Of a stretch of 35,399 bases of DNA, positions 13,586-17,657 are shown piece by piece. The stretch is from Dehalococcoidia bacterium (GTDB taxonomy: Bacteria > Chloroflexota > Dehalococcoidia > JAUSIH01). The stretch is taken from positions 1 through 35,399 of the forward strand of contig JAUSIH010000050.1 in assembly GCA_030648205.1 (NCBI GenBank), given 5' to 3'. Position 1 is the first letter of the stretch; every line of letters begins with the position of its first letter. A program made the translations under genes and the position numbers. A model generated the notes under the pieces. That model was not told the DNA's origin, did no database searches, and worked only from the letters and a program-made list of their open reading frames with translations.

Positions 13586-14416
13586 CGTCTGCGGCGACTC
13601 AATGGGGAGGTCGTCCCGGTTGCCCCACTCCTGCCAGGAGCCGTCATACATGCGGACGTGGGGATAGCCCAGCAGCTTGAGCGTGAAGAAAGCGTGCGCC
13701 GCACGCACTCCGGCCTGTCAGTACGTGACGATCTTTTTATCCGGCGTGACGCCGTGCTCCTGAAGCATGCGCCGTATATCCGCGGCGGGCTTCATGGTGG
13801 GTACATTGGTGTCCCTGAGGGTGGTGAGCCACTCCAGGTGCGTGGCGCTCGGTATGCGCCCGCCGTGGCGCGCGCGGACCGTGCTCCCGTCCCACTCGCC
13901 GTCGCTGCGTACGTCCCAGATGAGCGAGCCCTGCTTGCCGATAGCGTCCGCGACGGCGTGCGCGTCGGCGAAGATGCTCGCGTCGCGCCGGGGCGTGAAG
14001 GTGGCGCGAGTGACCCGCGGCGCGTCCAGCGAAATGGGCCGCCCTTCGGCCATCCACTTCTGCCAGCCGCCGTTAAGCACTTTGGCGCGTGTATGGCCGT
14101 AGTACGCCAGCGTCCACCATACGCGCACTCCGTGCCGCATGAGGCCCTCGCCGTCGTACACGATGACGAGCGTGTCCTTCCCGACGCCCGCCTGCGCCAT
14201 CAGCTCCGTGAACTGCTCCGGGGTCGCCACGCGCCAGGGATTGCCGGGGTCCTTGGTGCTTTCCCACGGGACGTTGACGGCGCCGGGGATATGGGCGCGC
14301 TGGTAGGCCGCGGAAGGCTCTGCGTCAATGATGCGGACATGAGGGTCTTGCGCGTGCGCGGCGAGCCAGTCGGTCTCCACGAGCAACTCGGGATGGGCGT
14401 ACCCGTAACTTGACAT
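13583..14416 (-). CDS. Two-domain thiosulfate sulfurtransferase (rhodanese) with in-frame TGA at the catalytic cysteine, candidate selenoprotein
   Basis: Rhodaneses move a sulfane sulfur from thiosulfate or mercaptopyruvate to a thiophile through a cysteine persulfide. The N-terminal, inactive rhodanese domain is at about 10-128 ([11 protein letters not shown], ending NGGWQKW). The catalytic domain starts near 145 ([27 protein letters not shown]). The next codon, 233, is TGA where the family has the catalytic Cys. The same frame continues [18 protein letters not shown] and [11 protein letters not shown], textbook family sequence, to a TAG at 13585. Total 277 residues, normal length. So either TGA is read as selenocysteine or the gene has a single nonsense change (TGC to TGA). 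Intact sequence on both sides favours recoding. Confidence 0.8.
13692..13720 (-). promoter_or_regulatory. SECIS-like hairpin following the in-frame TGA
   Basis: TGA is at 13720-13718 (minus). Seventeen bases later comes a 3-base apical loop GGC (13700-13698), closed by a perfect 6-bp stem GCGTGC/GCACGC (13706-13701 with 13697-13692). The stem can be extended past a U-U mismatch by weaker pairs. Bacterial SECIS elements lie in the coding region just after UGA, with the apical loop about 16-37 bases away and a G in its first two positions. This hairpin fits, though GC-rich coding sequence can make such stems by chance. Confidence 0.45.
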
Positions 14417-14462
14417 ATCCGTTCTCTTTCAGCGTGACCTGCCAGGGTGCAACTTAGCGTCC

Positions 14463-14498
14463 ATTATACGGCACATGTCTGCTGATGCGCCGTATAAT
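14463..14498. promoter_or_regulatory. Mirror-image divergent promoter with 10-bp inverted repeat
   Basis: ATTATACGGC (14463-14472) and GCCGTATAAT (14489-14498) are exact reverse complements. Each contains a perfect TATAAT -10 box, one reading towards the sulfurtransferase (minus) and one towards the ligase-like gene (plus). The -35 regions overlap the opposite half and are poor. The ligase ATG (14510) is 11 bases after its -10, so its leader is very short. Confidence 0.6.
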
Positions 14499-14509
14499 GT
14501 GCTGGACAC

Positions 14510-15535
14510 ATGACGCACACGACGAACGCCCCGGCTCCCCGGCCGGACGGAGCGCTGCCGGACGTGGTCTCGCCGATGCTGGCGGTGCCCGTCGCCGAGC
14601 CGTTCGATTCCCCCGACCACATCTTCGAACCCGCGTGGGACGGAATGCGCGCCCTCGCGTTCATCGAAGGAGGCAGGCTGCGCCTCCAGGGCCGCAATTT
14701 GGCGGCGCCGACGGGCGAGTGGCCCGAGATGGAGGCGCTTCCCAAACTCGTGAGCGGCGACGGCGTGGTGCTGGACGGCGAGATCGTGGCGCTGGACGCG
14801 CTGGGCAGGTCGAGCTTCACCCGCCTTCAGGACCGCCTGCGCCGCCAGACGCGCGAGGGCCCGGAGCGGGCCGCCCGGCGCATTCCCGCAACGTACATGG
14901 CGTTCGACATCCTGTACTGGGCGCACAGGTCGCTGCTCACCGAGCCGCTGATGCGGCGCAGGGACGTGCTGCAGCAGGTCGCGCGGACGGAGGGGCCTCT
15001 GCGCGTGGCGGAGTTCGTCGAGTCCGCGGGCGTCAGCTTCTTCCAGGTGGTGGAGCAGCTTGGGCTGGAGGGGATGGTCGCCAAGCACAAGGATGGTATC
15101 TATCTGCCGGGCAGGCGCAGCCCGTACTGGCTGAGGGTCAGGGTCGCGCGGAGCGGGATATTCGTCATCGGCGGGTACACGTTCGGCGGAGGGAACCGTC
15201 GCCAGCCGTTCCTGTCGCTGCTGCTCGGCCTGTACGACGGCGACCGCCTGGTGTACGCGGGCAGCGTCAGCGGCGGCTTCTCGGACGCGGCCCGAAAGGA
15301 GACGTATGAGAGGCTCGTGCCCCTGCACACGGACGTCTGCCCTTTCGCCAGTCCGCCCGTCTCGATTCACCAGTTCATCTACTGGTGCGGGCCGGAGCTG
15401 GTCTGCCAGGTCAAGTACGGCGAGATGGCCCCGGACAAGCGCGTGCGCTTTCCCCTGTTCGTGGCGCTGCGCCCGGACATATCCCCTCACGACTGCGCGC
15501 CTGAGGATGTGACGGCGCCGCCGCTGGAGGGGTGA
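14510..15535 (+). CDS. ATP-dependent DNA ligase-like protein (LigD ligase-domain family) lacking the catalytic lysine
   Basis: The 341-residue protein has the adenylation and OB-fold domains of the LigD/ATP-dependent ligase family. VLDGEIVALD (87-96), YMAFDILYW (129-137), LEGMVAK (186-192) and the OB-fold with FVIGGYTFGGGNRR (218-231) are all present. In motif I, however, the nucleotidyl-accepting Lys of KxDG is Ala42 (PAWDGMR), and motif V reads WLRVRV where family members have lysines. It should therefore not form the ligase-AMP intermediate in the usual way. It may be a non-catalytic DNA end-binding relative or use another residue. It is transcribed divergently from the sulfurtransferase. 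Confidence 0.8.
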   Translation: MTHTTNAPAPRPDGALPDVVSPMLAVPVAEPFDSPDHIFEPAWDGMRALAFIEGGRLRLQGRNLAAPTGEWPEMEALPKLVSGDGVVLDGEIVALDALGRSSFTRLQDRLRRQTREGPERAARRIPATYMAFDILYWAHRSLLTEPLMRRRDVLQQVARTEGPLRVAEFVESAGVSFFQVVEQLGLEGMVAKHKDGIYLPGRRSPYWLRVRVARSGIFVIGGYTFGGGNRRQPFLSLLLGLYDGDRLVYAGSVSGGFSDAARKETYERLVPLHTDVCPFASPPVSIHQFIYWCGPELVCQVKYGEMAPDKRVRFPLFVALRPDISPHDCAPEDVTAPPLEG

Positions 15536-15550
15536 CCCGTCCCCCCTGTG

Positions 15551-15612
15551 TCCCCCTTCCCACTGGGAAGGGGGAGAGAAGAAAAGGAAGTGTGGGAGGA
15601 CACCTCCCACAC
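15551..15612. repeat. Two strong hairpins after the ligase-like gene
   Basis: Arms TCCCCCTTCCC (15551-15561) and GGGAAGGGGGA (15565-15575) pair perfectly, as do GTGTGGGAGG (15590-15599) and CCTCCCACAC (15603-15612). A smaller GGGGC/GCCCC hairpin follows near 15625. No T-run follows, so they look like a repeat cluster that may stabilise or terminate the upstream mRNA. The rest of the gap up to 15750 shows nothing I recognise. Confidence 0.6.
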
Positions 15613-15753
15613 CCTCCGGCAAGGGGCATGGCCCCTCTGCACGCCCCTGCGGAGAATGCAAAGCCTTCTGGCAGCGTCATAGACTGCTCCTCCGTGTGTT
15701 CCCGGGGTAGAGACCGTTGTAGCGTCGCGCTGTCGCTGGACGGGGTCTTCGCC

Positions 15754-15812: not shown

Positions 15813-15830
15813 CGCCCTTCCGTGGAAGGG
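15813..15830. promoter_or_regulatory. 18-nt palindrome in the aspS leader
   Basis: CGCCCTTCCGTGGAAGGG ends two bases before the Shine-Dalgarno of aspS. It equals the reverse complement of the gatB leader element at 8575-8592 over all 18 bases. A hairpin here could affect ribosome access. Confidence 0.6.
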
Positions 15831-15845
15831 CCAAGGAGGCCCCTC

Positions 15846-17657
15846 GTGCTGAAGTCCCACGCCTGTGGTGAGCTGCGGAGCAGCCACATAGGCCAGTCGG
15901 TGAAGCTGGCAGGGTGGGTCCACCGCCGCCGCGACCACGGCGGCCTCATTTTTATTGACATCCGCGACAGGAGCGGCGTCGCGCAGGTCGTCTTCAATCC
16001 GGCCACGTCGCAGGACGCGCACAAGGTCGCCGACCAGTTCCGCAACGAGTGGTGCGTCCTTCTGGAGGGCGAGGTGGCGCGCAGGCCCGCGGGCACCGAG
16101 AACAAGCACCTGCCTACGGGCGAGATCGAGGTCATCGCGCGGCGGGCCGAGGTGCTGAACCCGTCCAAAGTCCCGCCCTTCTACATCAACGAGAACCAGG
16201 AGACCGACGAGTTCCTGCGCCTGAAGTACCGCTACCTGGACATCCGCCGCCCCGCCATGCGGGAGAAGCTGGTGCTGCGCCATCGCATCGTCAAGCACAT
16301 GCGGGACTACCTGGACACGCAGGGCTTCATCGAGGTGGAGACGCCCATCCTCACCAAGAGCACGCCGGAGGGCGCGCGCGACTATCTGGTGCCCAGCCGG
16401 GTGCAGCCGGGCAAGTTCTACGCCCTGCCGCAGTCGCCGCAGCAGATGAAGCAGCTCCTGATGGTGGCGGGCATGGAGCGCTACTTCCAGATAGCCCGTT
16501 GCTTCCGCGACGAGGACCTGCGCGCCGACAGGCAGCCGGAGTTCACGCAGGTGGACATCGAGATGAGCTTCGTGGAGGTGGAGGACATTCTGCGCCTCAT
16601 GGAAGCGATGTACACCTCCATGCTGGAGACTGTCACACCCGACTGGAAGCTGGTCAAGCCGTTCCCGCGCTATACCTACCAGGATGTCATGGACCGCTTC
16701 GGCAGCGACAAGCCCGACCTGCGCTTCGGCATGGAGCTGCGGGACGTGAGCGACATCATGGCCCAGACGACGTTCCAGGTCTTCCGAGGAGCCATCGAGG
16801 CGGGCGGCGTGGTGAAGGGCCTGGCTGCGCCGGGCTGCGCGGGCTACACGCGCAAGCAGGTGGACGAGCTGGTGGAGCTCGCGAAGGCGCGCGGCGCGAA
16901 GGGCATGGTCACCGCCGCCATCGCGCAGGAGGCCAGCCTTGACGGGCTGACGATGGAGCAGGTGCGCTCGCCGTCGTCGCGGTACGTGACGGTCGAGCAG
17001 TGGAAGGCTCTCGCCGCGCGGCTGGGCGCACGGCCCGGCGACATGATGATGTTCGTGGGCGGGCCAGCGCACATGGCGACCACCGTCCTGGGAGCGCTCC
17101 GGTCGGAGATGGGCAAGCGCCTGAAGCTGGCCGATCCCAACCTCATGTCATTCGCCTTCGTGGTGGACTTCCCGCTCCTGGAGTGGAACGAGGAGGAGAA
17201 GCGTTGGGACGCCGCGCATCACCCGTTCACCGCGCCCCTGGACTCGGACGTCGCTCTGCTGGAAAGCCAGCCGGGCAAGGTGCGCGCCAAGAGCTACGAC
17301 CTCGTGTGCAACGGGTACGAGCTTGCCAGCGGCAGCATCCGCATCCACCGGCGCGAGCTGCAGCAGCGGGTCTTCCGCGCCCTCAGCTATACGGACGAGG
17401 AGACGCAGGCCAAGTTCGGGCATCTGCTTGAGGCCTTCGAGTACGGCGCGCCGCCGCACGGGGGCATCGCCGCGGGCATAGACCGGACGGTCATGCTGCT
17501 GGCGCGCGCCGAGACCATCCGCGACGTCATCGCCTTCCCCAAGACGCAGACGGCGTGGGACCCGTTGTTCGATGCGCCGTCCGTCGCGTCGGAGCGGCAG
17601 CTCCGCGAGCTGCACCTGCGCATCGTCGAGGACGAGAAGCCGCAGGGGGCCGCGTAG
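15846..17657 (+). CDS. aspS: Aspartyl-tRNA synthetase, non-discriminating type predicted
   Basis: It charges tRNA(Asp) and, in non-discriminating forms, also tRNA(Asn) with aspartate. The GTG at 15846 is six bases after AAGGAGG; an earlier GTG at 15822 lies inside the leader palindrome and is not used here. 603 residues: anticodon-binding OB domain (1-105), class II motif 2 (FRDEDLRADRQPEFTQVD, 220-237), the bacterial insertion domain, and motif 3 (GGIAAGIDRTVML). His31 and Gly83 match the residues reported to mark non-discriminating AspRS in Pseudomonas aeruginosa. With GatB in the same window, this predicts Asn-tRNA formation by amidation. Confidence 0.95.
   Translation: MLKSHACGELRSSHIGQSVKLAGWVHRRRDHGGLIFIDIRDRSGVAQVVFNPATSQDAHKVADQFRNEWCVLLEGEVARRPAGTENKHLPTGEIEVIARRAEVLNPSKVPPFYINENQETDEFLRLKYRYLDIRRPAMREKLVLRHRIVKHMRDYLDTQGFIEVETPILTKSTPEGARDYLVPSRVQPGKFYALPQSPQQMKQLLMVAGMERYFQIARCFRDEDLRADRQPEFTQVDIEMSFVEVEDILRLMEAMYTSMLETVTPDWKLVKPFPRYTYQDVMDRFGSDKPDLRFGMELRDVSDIMAQTTFQVFRGAIEAGGVVKGLAAPGCAGYTRKQVDELVELAKARGAKGMVTAAIAQEASLDGLTMEQVRSPSSRYVTVEQWKALAARLGARPGDMMMFVGGPAHMATTVLGALRSEMGKRLKLADPNLMSFAFVVDFPLLEWNEEEKRWDAAHHPFTAPLDSDVALLESQPGKVRAKSYDLVCNGYELASGSIRIHRRELQQRVFRALSYTDEETQAKFGHLLEAFEYGAPPHGGIAAGIDRTVMLLARAETIRDVIAFPKTQTAWDPLFDAPSVASERQLRELHLRIVEDEKPQGAA

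Follow-up and report, generated by a model that had tools for sequence, protein, structure and literature searches.

A stand-alone LigD-type ligase-domain protein of a Dehalococcoidia bacterium lacks its catalytic lysines and belongs to a repeatedly degenerate, often Ku-linked group

The window analysed here, a complete contig of 35,399 bases from a 2.69 Mb draft genome of a Dehalococcoidia bacterium (95% complete, 120 contigs), encodes a small protein with the domains of a DNA ligase and without its catalytic lysines. Comparison with its relatives shows that the catalytic lysines are lost in this protein, referred to below as the pseudo-ligase, and that the clade around it lost its active sites repeatedly and through different residues, while the residues of the fold stayed. 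Purifying selection is shown by comparison to persist in the sampled relatives. In our reading, the protein probably originated as an active stand-alone ATP-dependent ligase in a Ku operon and now serves as a non-catalytic factor that binds nicks or ends. The features discussed are collected in Table 1.

Table 1. Features of the pseudo-ligase gene and its surroundings in the window
Feature	Position	Strand	Basis or remark
Stand-alone LigD-type ligase-domain protein, 341 aa, catalytically degenerate (pseudo-ligase)	14510..15535	+	ORF, translation, Pfam/NCBIfam, PDB homology
Nucleotidyltransferase (adenylation) domain PF01068, residues 22-210	14573..15139	+	Pfam match
OB-fold C-terminal domain PF04679, residues 231-323	15200..15478	+	Pfam match
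Codon GCG, Ala42, replacing the nucleotidylated motif I Lys (M. tuberculosis LigD Lys481)	14633..14635	+	Alignment
Motif V R-V-R (Arg209, Arg211), replacing K-x-K (M. tuberculosis Lys635, Lys637)	15134..15142	+	Alignment
Ser254, replacing the OB-fold Gly	15269..15271	+	Column comparison
Rhodanese-domain sulfurtransferase, divergent upstream neighbour	13718..14416	-	Most relatives have Ku upstream instead
Aspartyl-tRNA synthetase-type protein (tRNA-synt_2, GAD domain), downstream neighbour	15822..17657	+	
Inverted repeat, 15-nt arms, 93% complementary, between the divergent rhodanese and pseudo-ligase genes	14462..14499	.	

The frame of the pseudo-ligase is open over its whole length, and by profile the protein qualifies for the LigD family across both domains. 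The nucleotidyltransferase (NTase) domain was matched with an E-value of 2.5e-27 (96.3 bits against a cut-off of 26.2) and the OB-fold domain with an E-value of 2.9e-22 (79.3 bits against 27.5). The alignment with the M. tuberculosis LigD ligase domain (PDB 1vs0/6nhz, E 8.5e-43) spans the full length of the protein, and the single-module ORF is free of any fused polymerase or phosphoesterase domain. The NCBIfam model TIGR02779, "NHEJ DNA ligase", gave 231.9 bits, which is above the curated cut-off of 227.75, so automatic annotation would miss the lesion and call an active NHEJ ligase. A structure prediction from an alignment of three rows was rejected at a mean pLDDT of 32.

Motif I of the pseudo-ligase reads FEPAWDGMR and motif V reads WLRVRV. 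An earlier note on this DNA had claimed that alanine occupies the site of the nucleotidylated lysine and that arginines replace the lysines of motif V. Both claims were confirmed by the alignment to M. tuberculosis LigD (1vs0), in which Ala42, Arg209 and Arg211 land on Lys481, Lys635 and Lys637. The active comparison set consisted of 65 sequences (51 LigD-type domains and 14 intact stand-alone ligases), and every one of the 65 has Lys at all three sites, which places the lesions far beyond chance. The codon of Ala42 is two base changes away from any Lys codon, and both arginines are encoded by AGG (15134-15136 and 15140-15142). Because two defining features of an active ATP-dependent DNA ligase, the motif I Lys (KxDG) and the K-x-K of motif V, were tested for and are both missing, the protein is not classed as an active DNA ligase.

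Columns conserved in at least 95% of the 65 active sequences were taken as near-invariant, and there are 34 of them. The pseudo-ligase retains 30 and has lost K42, K209, K211 and G254, the last being 95% conserved in active enzymes and gone from most of the degenerate group. The earlier view that the remaining motifs and the OB-fold are well kept stands for most of the near-invariant positions and needs small corrections at G254 and at the motif VI Lys (RxDK), which is replaced by Ile. The latter absence is not diagnostic, since many intact LigDs of the same phylum also lack this lysine (RPDV). Asp44, Gly45, Arg47, Arg62, Glu91, Phe132, Glu187 and Lys192 are retained, and only six lysines are left in the whole protein, at 79, 192, 194, 263, 302 and 310. 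Over 37 degenerate proteins, the nine catalytic positions were changed in 160 of 333 cells and the other 25 near-invariant positions in 68 of 925; Gly45, Arg47, Gly90, Asp133, Gly188 and Trp207 were never altered in the degenerate members of the class. Judged from these alignments, the chemistry is lost and the fold is retained in the degenerate proteins. The pseudo-ligase itself has what distinguishes a pseudoenzyme: its catalytic residues are gone, and its fold residues and reading frame are retained.

The searches took in 60 relatives, 393 members of the class and 400 of the phylum. Their matches fell mainly into two kinds, namely ligase domains within PE-Lig-Pol LigDs of about 900 aa and stand-alone proteins of about 330-400 aa, and the best matches to the pseudo-ligase were stand-alone proteins at 43-50% identity. 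A separate search of genome contigs returned two distant archaeal LigDs only. A tree was built with the columns of motifs I and V left out, by a quick search in which deep branches are unsure, with a distinct subfamily of intact ligases of about 350-380 aa (L028, L029 and L030) as the outgroup. These proteins occur in the class genomes G016, G050 and G030, respectively, as a third, intact ligase beside LigD and a pseudo-ligase. The pseudo-ligase fell in a 32-row clade of stand-alone proteins of the class (SH-aLRT 98), separate from LigD, in which 30 members are degenerate with varied replacements and only two (G034 and G056) are intact, both keeping 34 of the 34 near-invariant positions. Together with the families f113 and f116 and one long-branched protein, this clade forms a 55-row group (SH-aLRT 88) outside the LigD ligase domains. 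Three further residues agree with the placement among the stand-alone members: V284, F314 and P322, all carried by the pseudo-ligase, are found in 100, 98 and 93% of these members as against 0, 0 and 14% of LigD domains.

The replacements at the active site differ widely within the group. KWDG is present at motif I in G034, G056 and G077, and other class members have MWGG, LWGG, KWGG, RWGG, LRGG, LWDG, IWDG, KWEG, LWEG or QWEG; most have E, A, S, Q, T or R at the first position of motif V. The minimum number of changes on the tree is six between the intact and degenerate states and nine for the motif I Lys alone. Family f113 (L146, L147 and L151-L155) is degenerate, with AWDG, SWDG or AWQG at motif I and LIE, LVQ and similar sequences without lysines at motif V. 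In family f116, 12 of 15 members are intact and three (L138-L140, from G547, G616 and G736) are degenerate (RWDG/LQIE, KWEG/LQVK). On this evidence the sister families add independent losses of the active site. Another degenerate stand-alone ligase, L157 (G404:C60), has ETRWNG and WLAVGR, lies on a long branch and has no Ku nearby. The suggestion that Ala42 might define a clade was rejected; its neighbours have L, M, I, Q or R, or K with other lesions, and Ala arose independently in f113. Orthologues with Lys at this site had been held to imply a sequencing error or a strain mutation. Such orthologues do exist in G034 and G056, with the full active site, and the pattern is one of repeated losses instead.

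Selection was estimated as dN/dS by the Nei-Gojobori method on close pairs. Degenerate pairs of the class gave values of 0.05-0.31, including pairs from genomes without Ku or LigD; the Ku-less pair G104/G057 has a dN/dS of 0.16, and for the Ku-less pair G135/G068, in which dS is saturated, pN/pS is 0.18. Intact stand-alone pairs gave 0.02-0.07, the degenerate genes being mostly faster. These values come from relatives. For the window gene, whose closest relative found is about 48% identical, the case for selection is made by the intact frame and by which positions it has retained. The proposal that the protein is under selection and does not form the AMP adduct is well supported by the degeneracy across the clade, the dN/dS below 1 in relatives, the concentration of losses at catalytic sites and the published mutants considered below.

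The connection with Ku comes from the relatives. Of the 29 other degenerate class members, 17 lie directly next to a Ku gene of the same strand (15 with Ku upstream; G190 and G157 with Ku downstream). In three further members, Ku is part of the same LigD cluster and is read from the opposite strand. Ku lies directly upstream in seven of seven cases in family f113. It is also directly upstream in all seven intact f116 members examined and not adjacent to the three degenerate ones, whose Ku genes are elsewhere in the genome. Family f116 runs counter to a simple rule that a dead ligase is a Ku partner, its intact ligases being the ones that follow Ku. Most Ku-positive class genomes with a degenerate copy also carry a full intact LigD, and the Ku-positive genomes without LigD (G221, G281 and G224) are incomplete or have close relatives that bear LigD. 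No other ATP-ligase domain was found in the genomes of G034 and G056, the sole intact class members. A simple rule that a separate LigD goes with a dead stand-alone copy holds within the class and was rejected, as it fails in f116, where intact stand-alone and intact LigD-type ligases coexist. That evolution has kept a family of dead ligases, usually next to Ku, in bacteria that are probably Chloroflexota suggests that their part in DNA repair is structural and not chemical.

Seven genomes, the window's included, have a degenerate copy and no detected Ku or LigD (G000, G057, G104, G089, G068, G135 and G211), and completeness is 96-98% for three of them (G057, G068 and G135). In several lineages the dead protein has therefore persisted after the pathway was gone, and a strictly Ku- or LigD-dependent role cannot apply there. 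A search for a conserved non-Ku neighbourhood of these orphan copies found none. In the window genome, the pseudo-ligase is the sole ATP-ligase domain, no LigD polymerase or phosphoesterase domain was found, and no Ku was detected either by the Pfam profile or with a relative's Ku as query at E-values up to 1. The genome does contain an intact second ligase, which the earlier note had advised looking for, in the form of the NAD-dependent LigA. With no Ku, no LigD and only LigA, the pseudo-ligase is an orphan, as in at least three other lineages; its neighbours are the rhodanese gene, the aspartyl-tRNA synthetase gene and others without relation to it, and it is a member of the group by phylogeny, not by context.

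The inverted repeat upstream of the gene comes with a TATAAT on each strand, and the ATG lies 11 nt past the TATAAT of the plus strand. The region possibly holds divergent promoters or an operator, and a leaderless start is suggested. No further copy of the palindrome was found across the genome, and its reading as a genome-wide operator was rejected for this reason. Just 3' of the pseudo-ligase, the intergenic sequence at 15542-15650 belongs to a dispersed repeat with 31 matches over the contigs of the genome, mostly 71-84% identical.

Could the gene simply be a decaying remnant, functionless since its lineage lost Ku and LigD and now being lost itself? The absence of both partners from the window genome, the absence of a conserved gene neighbourhood and the fairly long terminal branch of the pseudo-ligase (0.65) are in line with such decay. 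However, the 341-codon ORF is intact with a GC content by codon position of 0.70/0.48/0.91, three of the only four near-invariant positions lost are the catalytic lysines, and purifying selection is seen in two other Ku-less lineages, G068/G135 and G057/G104. We consider decay unlikely.

Mutants of active ligases bear on what the lesions would do. In M. tuberculosis LigD, nick sealing is absent in K637A and E613A (PMC8656161), and in yeast Dnl4 auto-adenylation is lost or nearly so in K282R, D284A and K466A (PMC3694833). These mutants indicate that such proteins cannot adenylate, and we strongly infer that the pseudo-ligase would be unable to self-adenylate or to seal nicks from ATP. It is improbable that the protein is instead an ATP-independent ligase, which would perform step 3 only and seal adenylated nicks (AppDNA), or would strip AMP from abortive intermediates. 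The K97A mutant of the archaeal RNA ligase MthRnl, a Lys-to-Ala change in motif I, still seals pre-adenylated donors (PMC3514331), and the eight retained residues listed above would be available for such chemistry. Yet MthRnl mutated in motif I and motif V together carries out none of the steps (PMC3514331), the pseudo-ligase is altered in both motifs, and the motif III or IV Glu is also lost in many clade members, which argues against retained chemistry for the family.

A somewhat smaller chance still attaches to a nucleotide-binding regulator, in which the pocket would bind ATP or a related ligand and the protein would be a sensor, or else a partner that regulates LigA or LigD. The M. tuberculosis LigD mutant K481M was designed to prevent adenylation and its ligase domain crystallised with ATP bound (PMC8656161), and the pseudo-ligase has retained its pocket residues apart from the lysines; on the other hand, the motif V Lys that helps to align the ATP phosphates is gone and several pocket residues are altered in other clade members. 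An active ligase with a migrated nucleophile is very improbable: a review allows that residues may have migrated in some presumed pseudoenzymes (PMC10211241), and Lys192 is kept, but it is the ordinary motif IV lysine of all active enzymes among only six lysines left, and with both motif V lysines gone a block at step 1 would still be expected. A sequencing or assembly artefact, conceivable in a draft of 120 contigs, is dismissed by at least four independent base changes exactly at catalytic codons in an open frame and by parallel losses in about 40 other genomes, and the clade-wide degeneracy rules out an error or a private mutation.

We return to a non-catalytic DNA nick- or end-binding factor for synapsis or recruitment, which we infer by analogy with dead Ligase IV. 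The Dnl4 mutants named above still gather at breaks and support joining by another ligase (PMC3694833), inactive Lig4 aids repair via another ligase, both in cell culture and, together with Lig3, in the mouse (PMC9638927, PMC11754673), and the short-range synaptic complex needs Lig4 bound to the ends (PMC10858965). In the proposed course of events, the ancestor would have been an ATP-dependent ligase, active and standing alone, whose gene shared an operon with Ku. In the relatives, the dead ligase would act with Ku while a separate intact LigD seals; in the window genome, which has lost both Ku and LigD, it would operate without Ku and leave the sealing to LigA, its own role at ends or nicks being architectural. 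The operon linkage with Ku seen in the relatives makes end-binding factor a plausible term, the window genome itself having no Ku, and the loss of OB-fold Gly254 is a point against it.

Several known systems resemble the pseudo-ligase in part. It has the NTase-OB architecture and length of the bacterial LigD ligase domain (M. tuberculosis, 1vs0/6nhz, TIGR02779), from which it differs in lacking the catalytic and motif V lysines, in standing alone and in branching apart from those domains on the tree. Ku-linked ligases of the stand-alone kind are already known, for example in Archaeoglobus fulgidus (PMC1378119); these NHEJ ligases are one-domain proteins like the pseudo-ligase, whose relatives also adjoin Ku. 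They are described as ligase components, whereas 30 of the 32 members of the class clade are degenerate and the window copy has no Ku linkage. The dead forms of Ligase IV (yeast Dnl4 K282R/D284A/K466A; mouse and human Lig4 K273) are hit at the same sites, the motif I Lys or Asp and the motif V Lys, and a dead ligase at breaks with another ligase sealing would be the working parallel. Those mutants are laboratory-made, eukaryotic and have their own partner proteins, whereas the dead state of the pseudo-ligase is natural, bacterial and repeated in evolution. The trypanosome prozyme (PMC5201418), a pseudoenzyme that regulates its active partner, is likewise a dead paralogue beside an active enzyme, as in many of the genomes here, the likeness of the pseudo-ligase being one of gene co-occurrence.

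The open-access literature searched yielded no description of an inactive or degenerate LigD paralogue or of a DNA "pseudoligase", and a natural, repeatedly evolved dead version of the known Ku-linked stand-alone ligases was not found there. More tentatively, and at somewhat less than even likelihood, the phylum may have evolved several times a dedicated non-catalytic end-joining subunit, encoded with Ku, which would hold or protect the ends while LigD seals, as a natural counterpart of dead Ligase IV; in Ku-less lineages it would bind breaks or nicks independently of Ku. Since TIGR02779 gives a catalytically dead protein the name of an NHEJ ligase, lists of the ligases in these genomes are wrong wherever the motif goes unchecked. 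Bacterial NHEJ is described as primarily a two-protein system of Ku and an active LigD (PMC8656161). If our reading is true, a conserved family of dead ligases from Ku operons would bring to it a third component, structural in kind, and would offer a natural system in which to test how large the architectural share of a ligase's work in end joining is.
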